DNA of 34,584 nt from Candidatus Methanophagales archaeon (lineage in GTDB: Archaea; Halobacteriota; Syntropharchaeia; Alkanophagales; Methanospirareceae): contig JAUWND010000007.1 of NCBI GenBank assembly GCA_030612835.1, forward strand, positions 1-34,584. Reading direction: 5' to 3'. A program made the position numbers and the translations under genes. Of this stretch, positions 13,618 to 30,697 are shown in pieces. The notes under the pieces were generated by a model. That model saw nothing but the letters and a program-made list of their open reading frames with translations. It was not told the DNA's origin and searched no databases. Each line of letters begins with the position of its first letter. The first letter of the stretch is position 1.

Positions 13618-14910
13618 TCAAGCCGCCTTTAAGTTCAGATACCTTGTATTCGTAGCATTAGTATCGTAGTATGCTCCTATTTCGTCAGCTTTTAAATCTA
13701 TCGGGACAGATAATTTTACCACCCACACGTCGGTATAGCCGGCGCCGAAAGAGTTTGTGTAGCCTGCTGCAATGTATCCTCCATCAGAAGTCTGCTGGGC
13801 CGAATAGCTTTTCTCCAGGCCTGTTCCTCCAAAGGTCACGTTCCACTGTTCATTCCCATATGCGTTTGTCTTCATAATCCAGAAGTCAGCCGAACCAGCG
13901 CCGTAAGACCCCGTATACCCTGCTATAATGTACCCGCCATCCCTGGCCTGATTGACAGAATAACCTTCATCCATGGCGGCTCCGCCAAAAATACTGTTCC
14001 ATTCTTCGTTACCATCCGGATCAATCTTTATCAGCCACGCATCCTGCCGATTATTTGTGCTTCCTGCCATGATATACCCGCCATCTGTCGTCTGCAGGAC
14101 TGAGTAGCCATAATCATAGTATGGACCACCGAACGTCCTGTTCCACTGTTCTATCCCATTTGAATCTGTCCGTATGAGCCATGCGTCAATCACTTCAGCG
14201 CCGTAAGAGCTTGTTCGTCCTGCAATGATGTATCCACCATCATAAGTCTGCTGAACGGAAGCGGCATACTCGCAGGCATCAGTTCCAAATGTCCTGTTCC
14301 ACTGTTCGGTCCCATTTAAATCGGTTTTTATCAGCCATGCATCCGCACGTGCACCAGCATAAGGGTCTGTCCGTCCTGCGATGATGTACCCTCCATCAGA
14401 AGTCTGCTGAACCGAATGACCCCAATCAAGACCAGTTCCACCGAACGTTCTGTTCCACTCTTCCGTCCCATCCGAATCAGTCTTTATCAACCATGCATCG
14501 TAATCACCAGCGCCGTATGAACGCGTGTATCCTGTAATGATGTAACCGCCATCAGAGGTCTGCCGGACAGAGCCGCGATCGAGGAAGTCTGCCTCTGCAC
14601 CTCCAAATGTCTTGTCCCACTCTTCAGTCCCGTTTGAATCTGTTTTTATCAGCCATAAGTCAGCATCACCAGCGCCGTAAGAATATGTGTGTCCTGCGAG
14701 TATGTATCCACCGTCTGCAGTTTGCTGGACTGAGTAGCAATAATCATCGTCAGCTCCTCCGAATGTCCTGTTCCATGATTCTTCAGGTGGCGTCTGTGCC
14801 ATCCCTGGCATCACCATTATCGCAGCTATCAGCGCAATAGCAACAATGCCTAAACATTTCTTTAGAGAAGAAAGCTTTACCAAAGAAACCTTCTCATTTT
14901 CCCCCTTCAT
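13618..14910 (-). CDS. Secreted seven-repeat, probably beta-propeller-like protein with a truncated CARDB-like tail
   Basis: Signal peptide ending PGMAQTPPEE; seven repeats of WNRTFGG...SVQQTxDGGYIxAGxTxSYGAG..DxWLIKTDxNGxEQ; ends in DLKADEIGAYYDTNATNTRYLNLKAA*. Confidence 0.8.
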   Translation of the reverse strand: MKGENEKVSLVKLSSLKKCLGIVAIALIAAIMVMPGMAQTPPEESWNRTFGGADDDYCYSVQQTADGGYILAGHTYSYGAGDADLWLIKTDSNGTEEWDKTFGGAEADFLDRGSVRQTSDGGYIITGYTRSYGAGDYDAWLIKTDSDGTEEWNRTFGGTGLDWGHSVQQTSDGGYIIAGRTDPYAGARADAWLIKTDLNGTEQWNRTFGTDACEYAASVQQTYDGGYIIAGRTSSYGAEVIDAWLIRTDSNGIEQWNRTFGGPYYDYGYSVLQTTDGGYIMAGSTNNRQDAWLIKIDPDGNEEWNSIFGGAAMDEGYSVNQARDGGYIIAGYTGSYGAGSADFWIMKTNAYGNEQWNVTFGGTGLEKSYSAQQTSDGGYIAAGYTNSFGAGYTDVWVVKLSVPIDLKADEIGAYYDTNATNTRYLNLKAA

Positions 14911-19499: not shown

Positions 19500-19555
19500 T
19501 TTTTCTGCTTTTCACATCCTAAATTTTTTACATCTGTCTTCTCATTTCCTTTCAT
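19496..19555 (-). CDS. Possible 19-codon leader ORF MKGNEKTDVKNLGCEKQKK overlapping the 1379 aa start (ATGA)
   Basis: ATG at 19555; TGA at 19498-19496 overlaps the main ATG at 19499. The same sequence is fused in frame upstream of the 774 aa paralog. Confidence 0.4.
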   Translation of the reverse strand: MKGNEKTDVKNLGCEKQKK

Positions 19556-20051
19556 TTTCTTTTTTTACTTTACAACCTCATTTTTTTTAACGGTTTCGTA
19601 TGAGCATAATACATTTTTACCATGGCTCTTCTTTTCCCATCGCTTCTTCTTTGCCCACACCTTCGCTTTTTTATTATCTCTTATGTAAGACGATTACAGT
19701 CGATGTTAATAAAAAGGTTTTCGGTTTTGATTTTTTTGCAGAAAAGGAGCAACAATACAGAGAAAAAGCAGCATTGCCGTAGCATAGAAACGAACAGAAG
19801 TAAGAGTTTGTGGCGACGATGTTAGCGCGATAATTGAATGTATTATCCTGTTTGAAGCTGTTGAATTTATTAGAAAAAGTTCACGCTGTGCGAATTAATA
19901 CTGGTACCGTGCATATAGGGTTATATACAGGGAAAGTACTATGAATACATGTGGACATATACGTTTGAAATGGTAAAAGATTATACTTAGAAGCCAAAAA
20001 ATATTTAACGTTGCATAAATTATCTTGTATATAGTGTAAGTGACAATAAAA

Positions 20052-20059
20052 ATTTATAA
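20052..20059 (+). promoter_or_regulatory. TATA-like box upstream of the motor operon
   Basis: AAAAATTTATAAAGGGG, about 55 nt upstream of the probable ATG at 20112; followed by AAAGGAGGTG at 20091. Confidence 0.3.
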
Positions 20060-20111
20060 AGGGGTATCAGATGCAAGCGGCATGTAAGGGAAAGGAGGTG
20101 TTGTGCGTAAA

Positions 20112-20966
20112 ATGAATGTGACCGCAGTACAGGAGGGTTTTACGGCCGCTATGCAGTCAGGGATATACATTATTTCAACGAGTTTATTGTATCCTGTGAT
20201 AATAATCCTATTTCTTTTAATTTGCTGGAGTTTAATAGCGCTCGGGGGGTTTATATATGAGTGGTATAAGCGGGACCGCGATTTTGTCTCGCTTGAGCAC
20301 GGTGCGTTCAAGGCGAGGGCGTTACTGAACGAGGATGACTCGGACGGTGCCTTCGACATCCTGAGTAAGACATGTTCTACTAAATACGTGCATCTGTTTC
20401 TCATTAGATTAGCAATGTTCCGGAGAGCGCATCAGAGTAAGAAACTCATGGAAGTAAAGATAGAGAAGTTATTGCATGATTTAGAGAGTGTAATGATGAA
20501 GAGGTGGGAGAAGTCACGGTTCGCGAGTCGGGCAGGCCCTATGCTGGGTCTGATGGGTACGTTGATACCGATGGGACCTGCACTACTCGCGCTTGCCGGC
20601 GGCGATATAGAAACGTTAGCAAAGAACCTGGTTGTCGCATTCGGATCAACAGTTCTCGGATTAGTGGCTGGACTGTGCGGGCATTTGTTATCAATGGTTA
20701 GAAGCAGATGGTACGATCAAGATATGAGTGATATGGAGTTTTTAGCGGAGATTCTGTTCGGTGACCGAGGAAGCGAAGAAGCCTTAGAGTTAGGGATAAT
20801 CGAAGAATGCGATTTTGAGGCGGATGATGGGTATGGTCAACGATTCAGGCACTATATTAGTAAGACGAATAGAGGGGAGAGGAGAAAATTGCGAGAAGTT
20901 TTTATGATGAATGGAGAGGAAGAGGAGGTGGTGGTAAAAGATGAGTTACATGAAGCGAAGGAGTAG
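20112..20966 (+). CDS. MotA/TolQ/ExbB-like proton channel family protein
   Basis: One N-terminal TM, a cytoplasmic region, then RAGPMLGLMGTLIPMGPALLALAGGDIETLAKNLVVAFGSTVLGLVAGLCGHLLS, the ExbB/TolQ signature. The ORF track starts at GTG 20103; ATG 20112 has better SD spacing. Confidence 0.87.
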   Translation: MNVTAVQEGFTAAMQSGIYIISTSLLYPVIIILFLLICWSLIALGGFIYEWYKRDRDFVSLEHGAFKARALLNEDDSDGAFDILSKTCSTKYVHLFLIRLAMFRRAHQSKKLMEVKIEKLLHDLESVMMKRWEKSRFASRAGPMLGLMGTLIPMGPALLALAGGDIETLAKNLVVAFGSTVLGLVAGLCGHLLSMVRSRWYDQDMSDMEFLAEILFGDRGSEEALELGIIEECDFEADDGYGQRFRHYISKTNRGERRKLREVFMMNGEEEEVVVKDELHEAKE

Positions 20967-21291
20967 AAGAAGCGGTAGGAGAAGAGGATTTCTACTACAG
21001 GACGATGAGGACCCTTTAAGTGGAGTTGCGAATCTGTTCGACGTGGCAATGATATTTGCCCTTGGATTGCTTGTTGCGCTACTGATACAGATGCAGATGC
21101 AAGAAGCACTCACGGACCTGGACAAGATGAAAGAGATTGTCGAGCGTGGTAAGAAGATGGAAATGGCTCCAACAGAACAGATGGTTACCGTTAGTGGCGA
21201 GATAGAGGAGTCGGGCACTCTTTATGAGATTAAACAGGGAGATGACTCGGTATTTGTACTGGTGAATGAATCCGCGAAAGGGGGAGGTTGA
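20941..21291 (+). CDS. DUF2149-like, ExbD-type single-TM protein
   Basis: DDEDPLSGVANLFDVAMIFALGLLVALLIQMQ carries a TM helix led by Asp, as in ExbD/TolR; overlaps the ExbB-like gene by 26 nt. Confidence 0.8.
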   Translation: MSYMKRRSRRSGRRRGFLLQDDEDPLSGVANLFDVAMIFALGLLVALLIQMQMQEALTDLDKMKEIVERGKKMEMAPTEQMVTVSGEIEESGTLYEIKQGDDSVFVLVNESAKGGG

Positions 21292-21399
21292 CCTTTAAAC
21301 GTATTGTATTTACTGACACCTGACAACTCACACCTCATACCTTCATCATAGCTAAATAAATACAAAAGGTCTATTGGGTACTGGTACCAGTTAGTAGGA

Positions 21400-22941
21400 A
21401 TGCGGAAAAAGATGCGAGAGCAGTGTAATCTGAGGAATATTGGCATTTTTATTGTAATAACGATGTGTTTAGTGGGCATGATGAGTCCTGCGATGACTCA
21501 ATCCTCAAACGTCATACCCTCAACACCCTTGTATATGTATGGACCTGTTTTCCATGAAAATAACATTTTTTGCGAATCACTCATTGTGTATGAGTCCACA
21601 AAGGGATTCAGTAAGAGTACTGAGAACGAGATATACAATTTGACTGTACTTGTAGACCCGGAGAATAGGGTTAAGGAGAGCGATGAAGGTAATTTTGCGA
21701 ATGACAATTTGCCGGATTTGGACGTTAACGAAATAGAGGCATACTACACTAACACAGACATAAGGTATCTAAACTTAAATAATGACGTCAAAGTAAAAAT
21801 AACAAATCACGGGTCTATAAACACAGTACCATTTGAAATAAAACTCGTTGTGAACGCAGAAGATGTAGATATTAAGACAATCCCTGCACTTGAGCCAAAT
21901 TCAAGTACATATGTAGTGTTCAATTGGACGCCAATATATAATGTGACCCGACCACCCATAAATGCATATCAGGTATCCGAAAATTTTACTTTGCATGCGA
22001 TAGTAGACCAGGAAAACAGAATAATAGAATCAAATGAGACCAATAACATGATGACGGTCAACGTATCTGCATTATGGAATGGTCGTATGGGAGGAAATGG
22101 TGTTTTAGGTGAACCATATATAACAACCCTGCATCATGGTATGTTACATGGTGGCACAATCTACACATTTGGTGATAGTTATAAGTACTGGAAATATGCA
22201 GTTCAACCAGGTAACCCTTATACAGTAAAATATAATGTTACACTGCCTCCTGGTACCAAGGTAGAATTAGCAAATATATATACCTATTTCGAGTGGTTTG
22301 TTACGGAACAACCGAAAGCTGAGGTGACGTTTGCTACTCCCGATGGCGAGAACCATCTTTCGATAGAAGGGTGGTACTGGGACAGAGCTTATGCTTTCAT
22401 TTTTGGACCTTTTTTATGGGGGGTCCTCAAGTATGATGTGACCCAATACATCAATGGGAACGGTACTTACAACTTCTCTCTTAAGCATGATGGTGGTCCT
22501 AAATACTTTGTGGATGGTGCGTTGTTGTTCTTAGTCTACCGTGATGAGAGCGAGCCTTTGATGGAGTACTGGGTGAGTGAGGGTGCAGACCTTATAGGAG
22601 GCAGAGATATTGAATATCTTCGCTATGAGGATACAACAGCGAAGGCGGAGTTCACAGGTGGCGAAATAGATATTGCAAATGTAACCAACGTGACACTGTT
22701 TTCTGTTGTGAATTGGGGATTCCAAACTGACCTATGGTTCAATGGCCACTTACTTGGGAAAGATTGTTTCACATCTATACACCCCTATCAAGAAGAGATT
22801 GCGCAATACAATGTTACAATGATACCGGCGGAATATCTTAATTCCACCTATAATCTTGTTGAAATGGAATTTAGAGGAAATTGCAGGAATATGCCGGCAA
22901 ATGCATTCCTGGTTGTGGAATACAAAAAAGATGAACGATAA
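21400..22941 (+). CDS. Secreted CARDB + DUF3344 protein (513 aa)
   Basis: Signal peptide FIVITMCLVGMMSPAMTQ; CARDB LPDLDVNEIEAYYTN...NRIIESNETNN; DUF3344-type HHGMLHGGTIYTFGDSYKYW...MPANAFLVVEYKK. Confidence 0.83.
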   Translation: MRKKMREQCNLRNIGIFIVITMCLVGMMSPAMTQSSNVIPSTPLYMYGPVFHENNIFCESLIVYESTKGFSKSTENEIYNLTVLVDPENRVKESDEGNFANDNLPDLDVNEIEAYYTNTDIRYLNLNNDVKVKITNHGSINTVPFEIKLVVNAEDVDIKTIPALEPNSSTYVVFNWTPIYNVTRPPINAYQVSENFTLHAIVDQENRIIESNETNNMMTVNVSALWNGRMGGNGVLGEPYITTLHHGMLHGGTIYTFGDSYKYWKYAVQPGNPYTVKYNVTLPPGTKVELANIYTYFEWFVTEQPKAEVTFATPDGENHLSIEGWYWDRAYAFIFGPFLWGVLKYDVTQYINGNGTYNFSLKHDGGPKYFVDGALLFLVYRDESEPLMEYWVSEGADLIGGRDIEYLRYEDTTAKAEFTGGEIDIANVTNVTLFSVVNWGFQTDLWFNGHLLGKDCFTSIHPYQEEIAQYNVTMIPAEYLNSTYNLVEMEFRGNCRNMPANAFLVVEYKKDER

Positions 22942-25900
22942 AAAGATGAACAATAGAGGACTCGGTACTTTTCTGGTAATAATGGTGTGTTTAGTGAGCA
23001 TGATGAGTCCTGCGATGACTCAGCCATCTATTCCAATGTTTAATAATGCGAGCACTGCTACCAATGGAGAAACTGATGACTTCTCTGAACCTATTACCCT
23101 TTTCGCGCCTTCTTCGCCTGTTCCTGATACCGAAGGAGCGCTGAGAACGTTCAACATTACAACAGACCAACCCGTAAACGTTAGCTTGCTACTCAACGGA
23201 ACGGAAGTGTTCAGCCAGAGCAGTGTGACAAACTCAACTTACACGAATACAAACGTCATTAAAGCTCTAGATAATGGAACACAGACACTTAACGAGAGCG
23301 ATAATAGTCTAACCGACCTTGCAGTAACAAGCATCGAACTTGAGACAGGCTGTGGTGCCTCGGAACATCCATGTTATCGCTATGCCGGATATGCTCTTAA
23401 CGTTACCGCGATAATAGCGAATCTCGGAGAGGCGAATGCGAGCAATTTTGTCCTTAACTTCTACGATGATGACACAATATTTAATGAAACAGAAGTCCGC
23501 CACCTTCAGGCAGGCTCTTCTTGTATCGTTAATGCCTCCTGGGACCTTTCAGATGCAGATATTGGGGTCCATAGTATTACTGTTGAAGTTGAACCGTGCA
23601 ACAATTCGGACAGTAACCTGACGAATAACATAAACCACTTAGAAGGGGTAGGGATAGCTAATCCCTGGGCAATCAATATGACAGTACCTGTAACTCCCGT
23701 AAAAGAAGGCGATAACGTATCTATCTATGTCGGTATTAGAAACAAAGGACCGCTAAGTGCCAACCTCTCGCTTAATTTCTCTTGTCTGGATAGCTACGAG
23801 AACAGAATCCTGTTTGATACCAAATCTTTGCGGGTAGACGCTAACAGCACAAATTATACCGACGCAACCTGGGATGCAAGACCTTTGTTCATAGGTCCCC
23901 CGGATAATATCTCTACCACACGTACCATAGTAGTGGAAGAGGCGAAAGCGGATTTACATACGAGAAAAGAGATAGAAGTGATGCCTCATTCAAACCTTAC
24001 CATTACTGCCGTAACCATAAATCCTTTTAATGAAACTGCAAATGTTGTGACCTTCACAATTAACAATAATGACAGTGAGACTGCAAATGCTACTCTTTGG
24101 CTCTATGATGTGAACACAACCGCACATGAAATATCTTATTCTTCAATGCCTGAACTGCTCCTGACATCCTATCCTGGTGCACTTAGCATGAGCGTGTATT
24201 TCGTTGACAAAATCACATATTATGAAGCGGGTCCGGGATGTTGGTATGAAGTTTATGATATGAACAACACTATAATCATGAATGAACGCCGCTCGAGCTC
24301 AACAAAAAAGAGAGAAGAGCGGGGCAATATTTGGTCCAACTGGGGTGCCGGGGATACTATTACACTAAAGTATTACAGAATAGAAGCTACTGTCGAACCG
24401 GTCGCACTGCTCAAATGCATGCCGCTTACTCTGAATGCAAGCGAAACGAAAAAATTCGCCATACCGTACGAATTATCACAGCCCGGAGTGCATACGCTAT
24501 GGCTGGTACTGAGCAACGGGAACAACGCTTTTACGACCGTTGGTGGGACGGATCTTGCAGTTAATCTTTCCGTGAATGAAACAGTGCTTGACGGCGACCA
24601 GTTGAACATAACGGCAATGATAAAAAATTTAGAGTCCATAAATGCCACGAACTTCTGTGTTCGTTTTTATATCGATTCGTCAATAATTCATGAAGAGAGT
24701 ATCCCTTACCTATCCGGCGTTGAATATCCGGATAACAGTACCTCAATATATGTTAGCTGGAACGCAACGACATGGAACGCAGGCAAAGGCAAAGATGTCT
24801 TCAATCATATAATAAAAGTGGAAATAGACTCGTGTGAGAATATAGATAACTATGCGTCAAACAACGAAGAGGAGAGAATAGTCCATGTTTACAATGATTT
24901 CGCTGTTACCTGCTTGAATATTAGTCATGACCTCAGTATCGGCGAGTCGGCTGCCATTAATTCTACAATACTATATTTGGGCAACAGAAGTAGGAGCGCA
25001 AACGTAAGCTTTTATGTAAAAAAAAGTGAAGATATAAAAAGACTTATCTCATCCTCTATTATTAGTTTTGACGATTCGGGCGGTAGTGTAACGAATTGGA
25101 CTGCCAAAATAGATAATAGCACGAATTTGTGCGCGCGGGTGACGGACGTAACTACAAATTGGACCGTGGACGTGAGCGGGAACTGCACGATAACCGTAGA
25201 AGTTGAGCCAGGATGGGATGTGAACAAAACGAATAATAAAATGAGTATCACAAGAGAGATTATCGCACCGGATTTCGTGCTCGATGACCTGCGTATCGAG
25301 CCGAAAAGCTCGATAGAGGGAAATACGACAAACATCTCGGTTACTGCCAATAACACGGGCGGCATAGCTCGTGCTACCAATATCGCCTTCTATGACTGCT
25401 TCAGAAAGCCCAGCGACTACTACATATCCATGTTTATGAACCCAACAGAATACGGTATCAAAACTACTTCGATTGGATTTAATAAGAACGATACGTTAGC
25501 AATGCGACTATATGTGAAGTTCACTTCTTACGGCGAGTATCTCCACCTGTATGACAGCAAGGGTAGGTTAATGGCAACATATAATGAGAGCTTTAGTGGC
25601 TGGACGCCCTGGATACGCGGCAATCGGATTGATGTGGAACTAGAGAAGCCGAAAGGGAGCAGTAGTTCTACCAAGGTGACGATTTACCAATATGACTACC
25701 TGATGTCCGAAGATGAAATTGTTAGTCGGCCTGTGGTTATAAACACAACCGATGCCCGGAACATCACAGTAAACTGGAGCGCTTCTCCTGCTGGTGAGCA
25801 TTGCATCGTGGCGATAATAGATCCGGAAGATGCTATTCCGGAAATAAACGAGACGAACAACGTGCAAATGAATTTCTGCCTCGTTCAGGGACCTGACCTC

Positions 25901-28900
25901 ATCGTCTCGGATATAAAGTTGCTGAATATTTCAGATGGTACAGAATTGAATGCTGCCAGTATAAGTGCGGGCGAACACGTGAATATCTGTGCCAATGTCT
26001 CTAATATAGGTGTGCTGCCCGCATACAATTTCAATGTGAGCTTTTTTATCGATGAACTCTGCGTTGGCACAGCCACTCATGTAAATGTTGCACCGAATGA
26101 GTCCACGCACGTTTCTACGTGTTGGAACACAACAGTGGGTAATTATAACGTTATAGTAATGGTGGATTCCGGAAACGACGTAACGGAGATGAATGAATCG
26201 AACAATAGTGGTGAAATATGTGTAAAAGTGCTCGGAGCTGACTTAGCAGTAGATATAGCCTTTAAAACCTCCACAGACGGGGACAAGGTTATGGTTACGG
26301 CAAACGCTACGGTTACAAATCAAGGCGTATCGCCTGCCAATAACTTCTACTCTTTCTTATTCGTCGGACAATATAAGAACGAACGCGGGTATGAACTCAT
26401 TCCGAGTTATTATGGTGCTGATGACGTCTATAAAGGTGTGAGATGGGTAAACAGGAGTTATGCCGGCGCGAACTGTATTTGTGTGCATGTTAACGCCACG
26501 GAGCATTTGGAAAAAGGCGAAAAGGTTTACCGGGTGAAAAAAGGGGACATAAAAATATATGACCGCAGAGGAGAAGAAGTTGCGAAACCAACAGAGCCGT
26601 GCTGTATTCCTGTAATGGGCGATACAGTAAACGTAAGTGTCCTGCATGGAGAGGGCCAGGGAGTAGAGATATTCTTTTACCCGGGCGAAATAAGAACGAA
26701 AAACAGGTCATTGGGTGTTGACGATAAATTCAACCTTTTGCTGGTAGAAGCAGTAGGGAAAGGAATTTACACGGCGTGTGTAGATGCCGACACGGAAGGT
26801 GAAGTGCCGGAACATGATGAACATAATAATCAGCAGGTGAAGCAGCTAAAAGTGCTGCCCGATTTCATCGTCTCTAACATTTCTATTTCGGGTAATGGCA
26901 CGGGGCTAAACGAGACAAATGAGGGCAGTACAGTATTCATAAACGCGAGCATAACGAATAGCGGGTTGATAAGTGGAGTTACAGATGCGGACGTTTTTGC
27001 CCTGCATGACTGGGTAGGCCTCTCGCCACGATTTGAACTCAGCCCGTATGGGTATCCATATGGCTATGGGTACGTGATATCGCATCCGGATGCCGATGCA
27101 ATAAAAATACATTTTAAGTCGTTGAATATAACGACAAAGAACGCGCCGTGTATTGAAAACCGGGGGTTTGTTTATATCAGAGATAAAACCGGAAAAATAG
27201 TAGAGCTGTGGGGGGAGAATAGGCGAGGTCCTGCGAATTCTTCCTGGATTACTGGTGATACCGCTTATGTTTATGCACCAACGAAATGTGGTGACATCAC
27301 GGCATCAAACGTCGTTATAGACAGATATCAGTGGACGAATAGAATAGCAAATATTTCGAGGGTCGAGTTGCAAGCAAAAGAAACGAAGAACTACACCGTG
27401 GTGTGGACCCCCGCAGATGCAGGACCTTATGCAATACAAATGATTATTGACCCGGAAAACAATGAGGCCGAGATGAACGAATCAAACAACGACTTAAATA
27501 AGAGCTTTTACCTGATGCCAGATGAGGACCCGGCAGTTGTAGATATAACTTTTTATCCGCAGCCGCCAGTGCCGAAGAATAGCCCGGTTAATATTACCGC
27601 ACAGATCGTTAATAACGGAAACAGGACATCGAATTTCTCGGTTGATCTGTGGGCGCTAAAAGAAGAGAATTACGATTACGAGACGGCGCATCCTACGGAC
27701 GATTTCAATGAAACAATAGTTACGTATCCGGAAGCGAATTGGACAGGCATTCTATTTGCAGAAATACGATTGGATGAAGGTTCAATAAGAAGACGAATGA
27801 AAGTGGATGACTTGTATAAGAGTACGAGTGCATATTTCTATTCTTTTAATGGCAAAAATATGGAAGTATGGACAAAAGGGAATACGACTAAAATAGAGAT
27901 GCTGCCTTTTAACTCTGTCAATTATAATGACCGTGAGACGACAAAAGCAGATGGAGGGAGAAAGGTATGGGGCTGCAATATAAATAAAATAGCACATAAA
28001 ATAATTCTTAACCATACCTCGGTATCTCTGGGACCGGGCAACACGACTAACGTAACTGGTATACTGCCACACGTGCGTGCGGGAAACGGTTCCATAAGTT
28101 ATAAGATTTATGCTGTTGTTGATATGGACAACGTGCTTTGGGAACTGAACGAAAGCAATAATGAACTCTCAAAACCGCTAAATGCCGAAATTCCGGACCT
28201 CATGATCTCTAATATCACGTGTGATGCACAGCCAAAAGCAGAAATTAAAAATATCGGTAGTGCACCAGCCGAAAATGTCTCTGTGCGGTTCATTCGTGAT
28301 GTGTACACGGGAGATATGGCTTATCCACCATATAAGGTAGAAAACGATGGGTTCTTTTCTATCTCGCAGAAGGATGCGAAAGTAATGCGAGTGCATTTCG
28401 ATTATTTGTATATGGATGAAGATAAGAACGGGTCGCTTCGCATCGGCAATGGGACTTCCTGGGAGGACTACAAAAAGGATAGCCCTAAAGGCTTCTGGAG
28501 TTCCTGGGTGAATGTGGATTCCGAAGGCGATTTCGTTACACATCCAATCACATTAATTTTGAATAAAGGGCGCTATGAGATAGATAGATACGAGTATGGA
28601 GTGGATAAGCCAGATAAACCATTCACGGTATATCCGGGGGCGAAAAGGTCAGTGCAAGTGCCGTTTACTGCGGAGAATGAGATATACAATTTAACTGTGC
28701 TCGTAGACCCTGAGAATAGGGTTAAGGAGAGTGACGAAGGTAATAATGAAGAGAAGAAGATAATGGGCCCTGATTTGACGTTTGCGTTCCAGGAAATAAT
28801 GTTTTTGAACAAAAAAGGGAACGAAGTTGGGTCTGATAAACTTATTGCGCGAGAAAGCCATACAATAAGAGTAAATGTAAAAAATGCCGGCTGCGTAGCT

Positions 28901-30697
28901 GCTGCGGATTTTTACGTTAAACTGTATGTGAACGAATCATATAATGCAACATACGATAAGCAGATTCCCGGTTTTCCCATGTCTGAACAAATTACTCGTC
29001 TTGAACCCGGAATAAGTAGCAAGATAGACTTCTCCTGGACGCCACAGGAAGAAGGTTTCTTTCGCGTGAAAGTGACGGTTGATGAGAATAATGATATTAC
29101 GGAAATAAGAGAAGAGAATAATGTTTTCCGTTGCTCCGATGAACTGAAAGTAGGAAAGCCGGGGTACAGGGCTAAAAACGATCCTTTAACCATTTATAAA
29201 CACGGCACGCTCAAAGGTGGAATCATATATGAACCTTATGCCCACTATGTTAGTCTGGAAGAGAAGACGAATACAAGTTATGATTATTCTAATGTATTTG
29301 GCATCGAGATACCACAAAAGGCAGAAATAGTGGTTGCACGCTTATATCTGTATCTCTGGGCAGACAAAGCGGATCGAGAACATCCCGGATTTCGTATTGG
29401 ATGCCTACCGGAAGTGAAGATAACATTTAATGGAGAAGAAATAAAGATGGGGCCAACAACATATGAGGACACTTCCGGTGCGACCGCGCAGAGTTATACT
29501 TATGCTACATCTTGCTACGATGTGACGTCCGCTTGCAATGGAAAGAAGTGGCGTGCCGAAGCACACATCACGAGAAAAGAACCCATGAGAGTTGGTATTA
29601 ATGGCATGGCGCTTCTTGTTGTATATCGGGATAGTGAGTCCATACTTACTTCATACTGGATTGGTGAGGGTAGTGATGTGCTAATGGCAAAGAACCTGAA
29701 TTTCCCTACCGGATTCGAGTTTGAAGAATGCACGCGGAAATGTGTGTTTGAGGATGTGGGCGATGCAGAAGTGGCAAATGCATCTCTTTTGACTGTATTG
29801 ACGCCTTACGTCTCTTATGATGCTACAAAACTACTCCCGGAAGCAGGAGGGGAAGGAGATTCACTTCGTTTTGGACGGCACGAGGTAGCTAATTTGATAG
29901 GTGATACTACAGGCCATTGGGCATACCGAAATTCAATAGCATTCACCGAAAACGAATGGGAATACGTAGATCTAAAGGATGGCACAAACATTGCGGAGAT
30001 ACAGAGCCGGGGGAATTATTTCGTATTGAAACATGCAATCCTGAAGGTGGAATACCTACCCGAACTCGTGGCACCCTACATACCGAAGAGCGTGGTAGTA
30101 GGACTGCCTATAACAGTGGAAATAGAAAACAAAGGTAAGAGTAACGCGGGAAAATTCAATGTCAGCTTCTATGTAGATGGATACCTGAAAGAGAAGAAGC
30201 AGTTTGGGGGGATACCAGGAGAAAGCAGAGAGGAGTGGACTTTGCCGTGGACACCGTACATGGTTGGACAACTTGCGAGATTGAACATATCCGTGGATTG
30301 CGATAATGATGTACGCGAATTGAACGAGAATAATAACAATGTCTCTCAGCTCGTCGCAGTCGTGGATATGCTACCGCTACTACCAGAAGAAGGAGGCTCA
30401 TCTTCAAGTGCATGGAGAAGAGGCTCAGGTCCTGGCGAAGGAACAGGCGAAGGTCGGGGTGCAGGCACAACAGTAGGTACCGCGGGAAAAACAGTAACGG
30501 GTGGAAAAGGTGGAAAGACAATTACCGGTCGGTTGATGAAAGGTACGGTAGCGCGAAGTGAAGAGCAGGGCGGAGGAGGCAAAGTGAAGTTCTCTATACT
30601 TGCGCTTTTGATGCGGCTTGCGATGATAGCAGTGGCTGTTGTTCTCTTTTATGTCGGGTGCTTGTGGGGGAGACGGTGGCATAGAAATATACAGTGA
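22931..30697 (+). CDS. Giant membrane-anchored surface protein: multiple CARDB domains with CUB-like insertions, DUF3344-type domain, Gly-rich linker and C-terminal TM anchor
   Basis: The ORF track starts at 22856; MNDKKMNNRGLGTFLVIMVCLVSMMSPAMTQ at 22931 is the likely start and overlaps the upstream stop. C-terminus GEGTGEGRGAG...KVKFSILALLMRLAMIAVAVVLFYVGCLWGRRWHRNIQ. Confidence 0.85.
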   Translation: MNDKKMNNRGLGTFLVIMVCLVSMMSPAMTQPSIPMFNNASTATNGETDDFSEPITLFAPSSPVPDTEGALRTFNITTDQPVNVSLLLNGTEVFSQSSVTNSTYTNTNVIKALDNGTQTLNESDNSLTDLAVTSIELETGCGASEHPCYRYAGYALNVTAIIANLGEANASNFVLNFYDDDTIFNETEVRHLQAGSSCIVNASWDLSDADIGVHSITVEVEPCNNSDSNLTNNINHLEGVGIANPWAINMTVPVTPVKEGDNVSIYVGIRNKGPLSANLSLNFSCLDSYENRILFDTKSLRVDANSTNYTDATWDARPLFIGPPDNISTTRTIVVEEAKADLHTRKEIEVMPHSNLTITAVTINPFNETANVVTFTINNNDSETANATLWLYDVNTTAHEISYSSMPELLLTSYPGALSMSVYFVDKITYYEAGPGCWYEVYDMNNTIIMNERRSSSTKKREERGNIWSNWGAGDTITLKYYRIEATVEPVALLKCMPLTLNASETKKFAIPYELSQPGVHTLWLVLSNGNNAFTTVGGTDLAVNLSVNETVLDGDQLNITAMIKNLESINATNFCVRFYIDSSIIHEESIPYLSGVEYPDNSTSIYVSWNATTWNAGKGKDVFNHIIKVEIDSCENIDNYASNNEEERIVHVYNDFAVTCLNISHDLSIGESAAINSTILYLGNRSRSANVSFYVKKSEDIKRLISSSIISFDDSGGSVTNWTAKIDNSTNLCARVTDVTTNWTVDVSGNCTITVEVEPGWDVNKTNNKMSITREIIAPDFVLDDLRIEPKSSIEGNTTNISVTANNTGGIARATNIAFYDCFRKPSDYYISMFMNPTEYGIKTTSIGFNKNDTLAMRLYVKFTSYGEYLHLYDSKGRLMATYNESFSGWTPWIRGNRIDVELEKPKGSSSSTKVTIYQYDYLMSEDEIVSRPVVINTTDARNITVNWSASPAGEHCIVAIIDPEDAIPEINETNNVQMNFCLVQGPDLIVSDIKLLNISDGTELNAASISAGEHVNICANVSNIGVLPAYNFNVSFFIDELCVGTATHVNVAPNESTHVSTCWNTTVGNYNVIVMVDSGNDVTEMNESNNSGEICVKVLGADLAVDIAFKTSTDGDKVMVTANATVTNQGVSPANNFYSFLFVGQYKNERGYELIPSYYGADDVYKGVRWVNRSYAGANCICVHVNATEHLEKGEKVYRVKKGDIKIYDRRGEEVAKPTEPCCIPVMGDTVNVSVLHGEGQGVEIFFYPGEIRTKNRSLGVDDKFNLLLVEAVGKGIYTACVDADTEGEVPEHDEHNNQQVKQLKVLPDFIVSNISISGNGTGLNETNEGSTVFINASITNSGLISGVTDADVFALHDWVGLSPRFELSPYGYPYGYGYVISHPDADAIKIHFKSLNITTKNAPCIENRGFVYIRDKTGKIVELWGENRRGPANSSWITGDTAYVYAPTKCGDITASNVVIDRYQWTNRIANISRVELQAKETKNYTVVWTPADAGPYAIQMIIDPENNEAEMNESNNDLNKSFYLMPDEDPAVVDITFYPQPPVPKNSPVNITAQIVNNGNRTSNFSVDLWALKEENYDYETAHPTDDFNETIVTYPEANWTGILFAEIRLDEGSIRRRMKVDDLYKSTSAYFYSFNGKNMEVWTKGNTTKIEMLPFNSVNYNDRETTKADGGRKVWGCNINKIAHKIILNHTSVSLGPGNTTNVTGILPHVRAGNGSISYKIYAVVDMDNVLWELNESNNELSKPLNAEIPDLMISNITCDAQPKAEIKNIGSAPAENVSVRFIRDVYTGDMAYPPYKVENDGFFSISQKDAKVMRVHFDYLYMDEDKNGSLRIGNGTSWEDYKKDSPKGFWSSWVNVDSEGDFVTHPITLILNKGRYEIDRYEYGVDKPDKPFTVYPGAKRSVQVPFTAENEIYNLTVLVDPENRVKESDEGNNEEKKIMGPDLTFAFQEIMFLNKKGNEVGSDKLIARESHTIRVNVKNAGCVAAADFYVKLYVNESYNATYDKQIPGFPMSEQITRLEPGISSKIDFSWTPQEEGFFRVKVTVDENNDITEIREENNVFRCSDELKVGKPGYRAKNDPLTIYKHGTLKGGIIYEPYAHYVSLEEKTNTSYDYSNVFGIEIPQKAEIVVARLYLYLWADKADREHPGFRIGCLPEVKITFNGEEIKMGPTTYEDTSGATAQSYTYATSCYDVTSACNGKKWRAEAHITRKEPMRVGINGMALLVVYRDSESILTSYWIGEGSDVLMAKNLNFPTGFEFEECTRKCVFEDVGDAEVANASLLTVLTPYVSYDATKLLPEAGGEGDSLRFGRHEVANLIGDTTGHWAYRNSIAFTENEWEYVDLKDGTNIAEIQSRGNYFVLKHAILKVEYLPELVAPYIPKSVVVGLPITVEIENKGKSNAGKFNVSFYVDGYLKEKKQFGGIPGESREEWTLPWTPYMVGQLARLNISVDCDNDVRELNENNNNVSQLVAVVDMLPLLPEEGGSSSSAWRRGSGPGEGTGEGRGAGTTVGTAGKTVTGGKGGKTITGRLMKGTVARSEEQGGGGKVKFSILALLMRLAMIAVAVVLFYVGCLWGRRWHRNIQ

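Follow-up and report, generated by a model that had tools for sequence, protein, structure and literature searches.

Giant CARDB exoproteins with a C-terminal anchor recur beside a putative ExbB/DUF2149 motor in archaea

We found evidence that, in several archaeal lineages, a putative motor made of an ExbB-like protein and a DUF2149 protein is linked to giant exoproteins that are anchored by their C-terminus. The locus studied here lies on a contig of 34,584 nucleotides (positions 1-34584, hereafter the window) from a 2.5-Mb ANME-1 (Methanophagales) genome, within a cluster of CARDB/DUF3344 genes. Four plus-strand genes, all confirmed here by Pfam matches of their products, encode an ExbB/TolQ/MotA-type channel subunit (287 aa, 20103..20966), a DUF2149 (HmuV-type) subunit with a single transmembrane segment (TM) (116 aa, 20941..21291), a secreted CARDB and DUF3344 protein (513 aa, 21400..22941) and a giant exoprotein (2588 aa, 22931..30697). 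A preliminary description of this locus had proposed that the pair energises a surface partner, as an archaeal counterpart of TonB. We hypothesise a TonB-like arrangement in archaea, with the motor acting on plug-in exoproteins for the energised capture or release of corrinoids, tetrapyrroles or metal complexes, a reading whose chances we consider evenly balanced. Its comparative basis consists of linkage, clade structure, tail similarity and binding-protein enrichment, the first three being the most secure.

The ExbB-like protein matches MotA_ExbB (PF01618) with 34.2 bits against a cut-off of 22.9 and has a 1+2 arrangement of TMs, which bears out the three-TM ExbB/TolQ layout described earlier. 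Threonines at the equivalents of E. coli ExbB T148 and T181, in TM2 and TM3, are kept in 32/32 aligned rows; a phmmer search of the protein against PDB gave no matches. DUF2149 (PF09919) was matched by the second product with 42.4 bits (cut-off 27.1), and the single TM begins with an Asp that, together with the preceding Pro and Asn, is essentially invariant among 132 sequences. The comparison of this Asp-headed TM with ExbD held as to position, the two Asp residues being aligned by hhalign; at a probability of 3.6% DUF2149 is not of the ExbD family by sequence profile. PF02472 (ExbD/TolR) had no match anywhere in the genome, and since the genome is without ExbD, DUF2149 is the natural partner of the ExbB-like protein. 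The predicted DUF2149 model is of low confidence (mean pLDDT 58), shows just a long helix plus a beta hairpin and had no match in PDB, where the DUF2149 profile found marginal helical matches only; given the lack of a PDB match and a model too uncertain for folds to be compared, we claim no ExbD fold for DUF2149. Elsewhere, loci and genomes being cited by L and G numbers, ExbB carries an extra N-terminal, apparently secreted domain with no Pfam match (L037:178-1551, L038:8606-10720), or a long C-terminal extension (L040-L045, 407-463 aa in total) that in L044 includes further hydrophobic segments.

Loci gathered from 80 genome contigs and from whole genomes gave 131 distinct DUF2149 loci, with 71 linked to CobN/DUF2162 (HmuS-like), 24 directly beside a CARDB gene, mostly a giant one, and 36 with neither under a strict rule, the last including contig ends, Bacteroidota hmu operons with a gene between CobN and the motor, and giant loci interrupted by an inserted open reading frame (L057, L165, L168). 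CARDB-adjacent genes are tightly spaced, overlapping by 4 nt in 11/24 loci and lying at most 40 nt apart in 18/24; by comparison, a giant was the neighbour of 10 of the 157 non-motor genes in the same giant-containing loci. The motor precedes the giant in the window, L036 and L117, is separated from it by a BatD-like protein in L040 and L044, and follows it in L048, L049, L056, L060, L100, L173, L185 and others, and Pfam confirmed CARDB in L048, L044, L036 and L117 and DUF3344 in L044. The expectation that the motor would recur beside giant, C-terminally anchored CARDB exoproteins was upheld in several archaeal lineages, and the opposite proposition, that it is linked to CobN only and at no locus to such exoproteins, is contradicted by the presence of both classes, in largely separate ExbB clades. 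The window has no CobN/HmuS gene beside the motor or elsewhere, and the CobN-linked motor of this genome (G000) lies on another contig (L114). Within the 2.5-Mb genome, 14 of the 16 DUF3344 matches fall on the 34.6-kb contig with the motor placed among them, so this neighbourhood is more than chance.

Other arrangements were seen around these motors. After DUF2149, L040-L045 and L058 encode an anchored BatD/DUF11-like protein of about 510-630 aa, which in L041-L044 finishes with a conserved C-terminal sequence of its own (YEI...VYLIGRF). L057, L058, L075 and L124 have a second motor pair, whose neighbours are a DUF2162 protein (about 400 aa) and a beta-helix protein (about 640 aa) that in L057, L075 and L124 has a GKRM-type tail. 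CARDB proteins of 873 aa also lie beside CobN-clade motors (L158:10941 and L160:10963, in G159 and G155), and these were not counted as having the same tail, because their C-terminus differs.

In the ExbB tree, a single 49-row clade (support 99/92), which spans ANME-1, ANME-2, Argoarchaeum and Syntrophoarchaeum and contains the window's ExbB, takes in 29 of the 31 CARDB-linked rows; the CobN-linked rows lie almost entirely outside it. A match to the giant was found in 9/13 family genomes with a close (window-type) ExbB, and the co-occurrence of the two in 51 family genomes (9/4/7/31) gave a Fisher value of 0.0014, which ignores kinship among genomes that are incomplete and related. The 12-row subclade of the window's ExbB has a giant directly downstream in three cases (the window, L036/L243 and L117), and in L239 a decayed copy of the giant follows the motor.

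The giants that adjoin motors share a C-terminal end, in which a GxxM-like segment is followed by a Gly-rich linker, a single TM and GYxxE, with basic residues after it (G[YF]..basic). A profile of this anchor, built from 30 giant tails only, was searched against 28,934 C-termini that included 76 of CobN, and its 37 non-training matches at E<=0.1 comprised 30 CobN, 4 CARDB, 2 binding proteins and 1 other, this last being a giant remnant in L225. When the linker columns were shuffled and the TM kept, CobN matches at the same threshold fell to 0-5, so that the CobN match depends on residue order and not on composition or hydrophobicity alone. The tail of the window's giant (30515..30694, plus strand), with the linker KTITGRLMKGTVARSEEQGGGG, the TM (about 30590-30658) and then GCLWGRRWHRNIQ, matched the profile when held out (E 6.5e-22) and has GRLM at 30527-30538. 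In L172 and L174, the gene immediately preceding ExbB-DUF2149 encodes a double Peripla_BP_2 protein of 543 aa with this tail; in 15 whole genomes the confident profile matches were the giants and this same anchored binding protein, and HmuS tails of Bacteroidota carry GMVM (L110), GTVM (L107) and GVVM (L108). Since different motor-adjacent exoproteins have similar tails, this element may dock the exoprotein on the motor. These conclusions rest on the profile and the shuffles; a strict GxxM count over all proteins with a C-terminal TM was set aside, as it lumps unrelated proteins together with CobN proteins whose gene is one removed from the motor. Two short open reading frames (L233:4098-4382, L225:10313-10552) hold little beyond the linker, TM and basic tail, and are either giant remnants or stand-alone tails.

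The giant itself has a signal peptide, a CARDB array, a DUF3344 domain (29165..30052, plus strand, 127.2 bits), further CARDB, the Gly-rich linker, the TM and the basic tail, with nine CARDB stretches and one DUF3344 recognised by Pfam. Of the end described earlier, the Gly-rich linker, single TM and basic tail were all found, and the CUB-like label falls away, Pfam finding no CUB domain in the four plus-strand gene products. The earlier length of 2613 aa corresponds to a start at TTG 22856, inside the preceding gene; the 11-nt overlap at 22931-22941 stands if the giant starts at ATG 22931, which yields 2588 aa. There is no TonB domain match in Pfam, and the anchor is C-terminal, with no TonB-type N-terminal one. 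A fold search with the C-terminal 579 residues gave confident matches to CARDB (beta-sandwich) structures only, the DUF3344 part having no clear relative; matches to these residues occur in 16/51 genomes of the family, and giants with the same type of end in ANME-2, GB37, Argoarchaeum and a CSMAG_151 genome. The 513-aa protein has CARDB and DUF3344 matches and no TM within its last 75 aa; an identical 24-residue stretch common to it and the giant suggests that it arose by partial duplication; in L226 an equivalent gene, of 823 aa, precedes the giant. Giants of more than 4100 aa with CARDB arrays and the same type of tail are encoded at L228:5689-18183 and L259:6342-19556. A C-terminal part near-identical to that of the window's giant (L258:2-3382, G083:C125) lies in a genome of another family, its contig probably mis-binned, as metagenome bins may be mixed.

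What such a motor might serve is suggested by its neighbours. Peripla_BP_2 genes flank motors in L044, L047, L070, L072, L100, L115, L117, L118, L122 and L185; some motor loci also have FecCD, CbiB, CobQ or an ABC ATPase. Ten of the 42 Peripla_BP_2 matches, in ten genomes, lie at most 8 kb from a motor, where about 0.8 would be expected from an estimated 22 motors (about 13-fold; Poisson ~1e-8). Because of this enrichment and of the CobN link of the sister clade, the function is probably the capture of corrinoids, tetrapyrroles or metal complexes, the cargo being what these genomic associations imply. The structure of a CARDB domain of PF1109 (3idu) has di-metal ions, which is compatible with a metal cargo and no proof of it.

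As we envisage it, the ExbB-like and DUF2149 proteins would assemble in the inner membrane into an ExbBD/TolQR-type motor driven by ions, and the CARDB/DUF3344 giant would extend outward from the membrane and dock on the motor by its C-terminal tail. This tail would act as a plug, and sister motors may use a similar one on an anchored CobN/HmuS, a Peripla_BP_2 protein or a beta-helix protein. In ExbBD, ion flow through the complex moves the partner; by analogy, ion flow here could pull or twist the docked tail and hence the exoprotein. The most likely use would be the energised extracellular capture or release of corrinoids, tetrapyrroles and metal complexes for a FecCD-type importer. Physical coupling, force and cargo are what we infer from the comparisons, and the function is the least secure part.

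Several observations weigh against this reading of the window. Within the ExbB subclade, direct linkage to a giant was not seen in L116, L118, L121, L122 and L035, the neighbour being a divergent binding-protein gene in L118 and L122 (as also in L117) and ordinary genes in L116 and L035, and in genomes G020 and G035 the motor occurs without an orthologue of the giant. The window's giant ends in GCxxG (GCLWGRR) versus the consensus GYxxE, without the conserved Tyr and Glu, and some CobN tails have GxxL or GxxI instead of GxxM. Moreover, motif and profile were designed after inspection of the sequences, and no uptake gene lies within the window. A sequencing error behind the variant tail was rejected, as the same variant occurs in the assembly of L258. 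The proposal of a TonB counterpart acting on a surface partner is strengthened by the recurrent linkage and by the likeness of the tails to those of CobN/HmuS and binding proteins, and weakened by direct adjacency being the minority state in the window's own subclade, though a giant is often present elsewhere in the genome.

It is conceivable, if rather unlikely, that the motor stretches, retracts or senses tension in giant CARDB/DUF3344 adhesin fibres binding partner bacteria, and that it plays no part in uptake. Both CARDB arrays and DUF3344 belong to the domains of surface proteins, ANME live in consortia, and the fold search gave beta-sandwich matches only; a survey of fibrillar adhesins included DUF3344, placing it among clusters of ambiguous function (PMC9210967). 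The enrichment of binding-protein and corrinoid genes near motors and a tail common to chelatases and a binding protein count against this view. We regard it as improbable that the window's motor has lost or changed its partner and serves a binding protein or CobN encoded elsewhere in the genome, the adjacent giant being incidental. The patchy adjacency in the subclade, the divergent binding-protein neighbours in L117, L118 and L122 and the deviating tail would fit such a change, but G000 already has a CobN-linked motor of its own (L114), the adjacency extends to L036, L117 and the remnant in L239, and giant and motor co-occur. That the pair helps to export, anchor or assemble surface proteins of very large size, instead of acting on them later, would agree with the tight, co-transcription-type layout with giants and anchored CobN, but is very improbable, since most CARDB/DUF3344 proteins of the window have neither the tail nor a motor of their own and the partner of CobN-linked motors is of ordinary size.

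Motors of the ExbB type are familiar mainly from cells that possess an outer membrane, in which their partner is TonB or TolA. The proposed system shares with TonB-ExbB-ExbD and TolA-TolQ-TolR an ExbB-type channel with conserved TM threonines, a single-TM subunit with an Asp and a third protein that extends out of the membrane, but its partner is anchored by the C-terminus instead of the N-terminus and DUF2149 has no recognisable ExbD domain; we know of no outer membrane in the Methanophagales lineage. With CARDB/DUF3344 fibrillar adhesins it shares long arrays of beta-sandwich domains, whereas the archaeal giant is motor-linked and has a specific membrane tail. The archaeal CobN-DUF2162-ExbB-DUF2149 clusters (e.g. 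L114) have a homologous motor and an anchored extracellular partner with a related tail, but a largely separate ExbB clade, DUF2162 and no CARDB giant. HmuSTUV of Bacteroidota has both motor families, likewise in this order, and beside the motor an anchored exoprotein with a GxVM/GxxL tail (L107, L108, L110), but the partner is a CobN-type de-chelatase instead of a CARDB giant, and an outer membrane receptor is present. In the Hmu operon, DUF2149 goes by the name of HmuV and this type of ExbB by that of HmuU (PMC10434189; PMC12583661); HmuUV has been assigned to powering the receptor HmuR in bacteria (PMC12583661), and HmuU and HmuV were called uncharacterised in P. gingivalis (PMC13227078). 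De-chelation by HmuS in cell lysates required NADH and not ATP. Since the HmuS tail resembles those of the giants, a hypothesis suggested by our comparison is that HmuUV has HmuS as a client, either in place of the outer membrane receptor or in addition to it, so that HmuU and HmuV would have a direct role in driving HmuS.

Taken more broadly, these loci would be compatible with a modular energisation of the archaeal envelope, one ExbB/DUF2149 family acting by way of a shared C-terminal docking tail on interchangeable exoproteins (chelatases, beta-helix proteins, binding proteins and CARDB giants whose size can exceed 4000 aa), and with the same tail coupling HmuS to HmuUV in gut Bacteroidota, an idea that we hold tentatively, as somewhat short of an even chance. 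Corrinoids and metals are needed for the methane metabolism of ANME, and the system, if real, would offer a handle on their acquisition and extend force transduction to a single-membrane archaeal envelope with giant surface proteins. Among the open-access papers searched, none joins ExbB, archaea and CARDB, and none joins CobN, TolQ and Methanosarcina.

The remaining features of the window concern its layout. The 26-nt overlap of the exbB and DUF2149 genes (20941-20966) was confirmed, with exbB starting at GTG 20103 (after GGAGGT) or at ATG 20112. A putative archaeal TATA box, TTTATAAA (20053..20060, plus strand), lies about 43 nt 5' of the exbB start. Motor pair and exoprotein genes are separated by 108 nt (21292..21399, plus strand), within which a weak A/T-rich stretch near 21355 is a candidate TATA box; no terminator-like site was found in 19500-23400, this gap included, and in relatives the corresponding genes overlap or abut. 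The minus-strand neighbours of the four genes mostly encode CARDB/DUF3344 surface proteins. Finally, positions 13618-14910 of the window encode a secreted protein that resembles a beta-propeller and weakly matches delta-60 and SBBP repeats.

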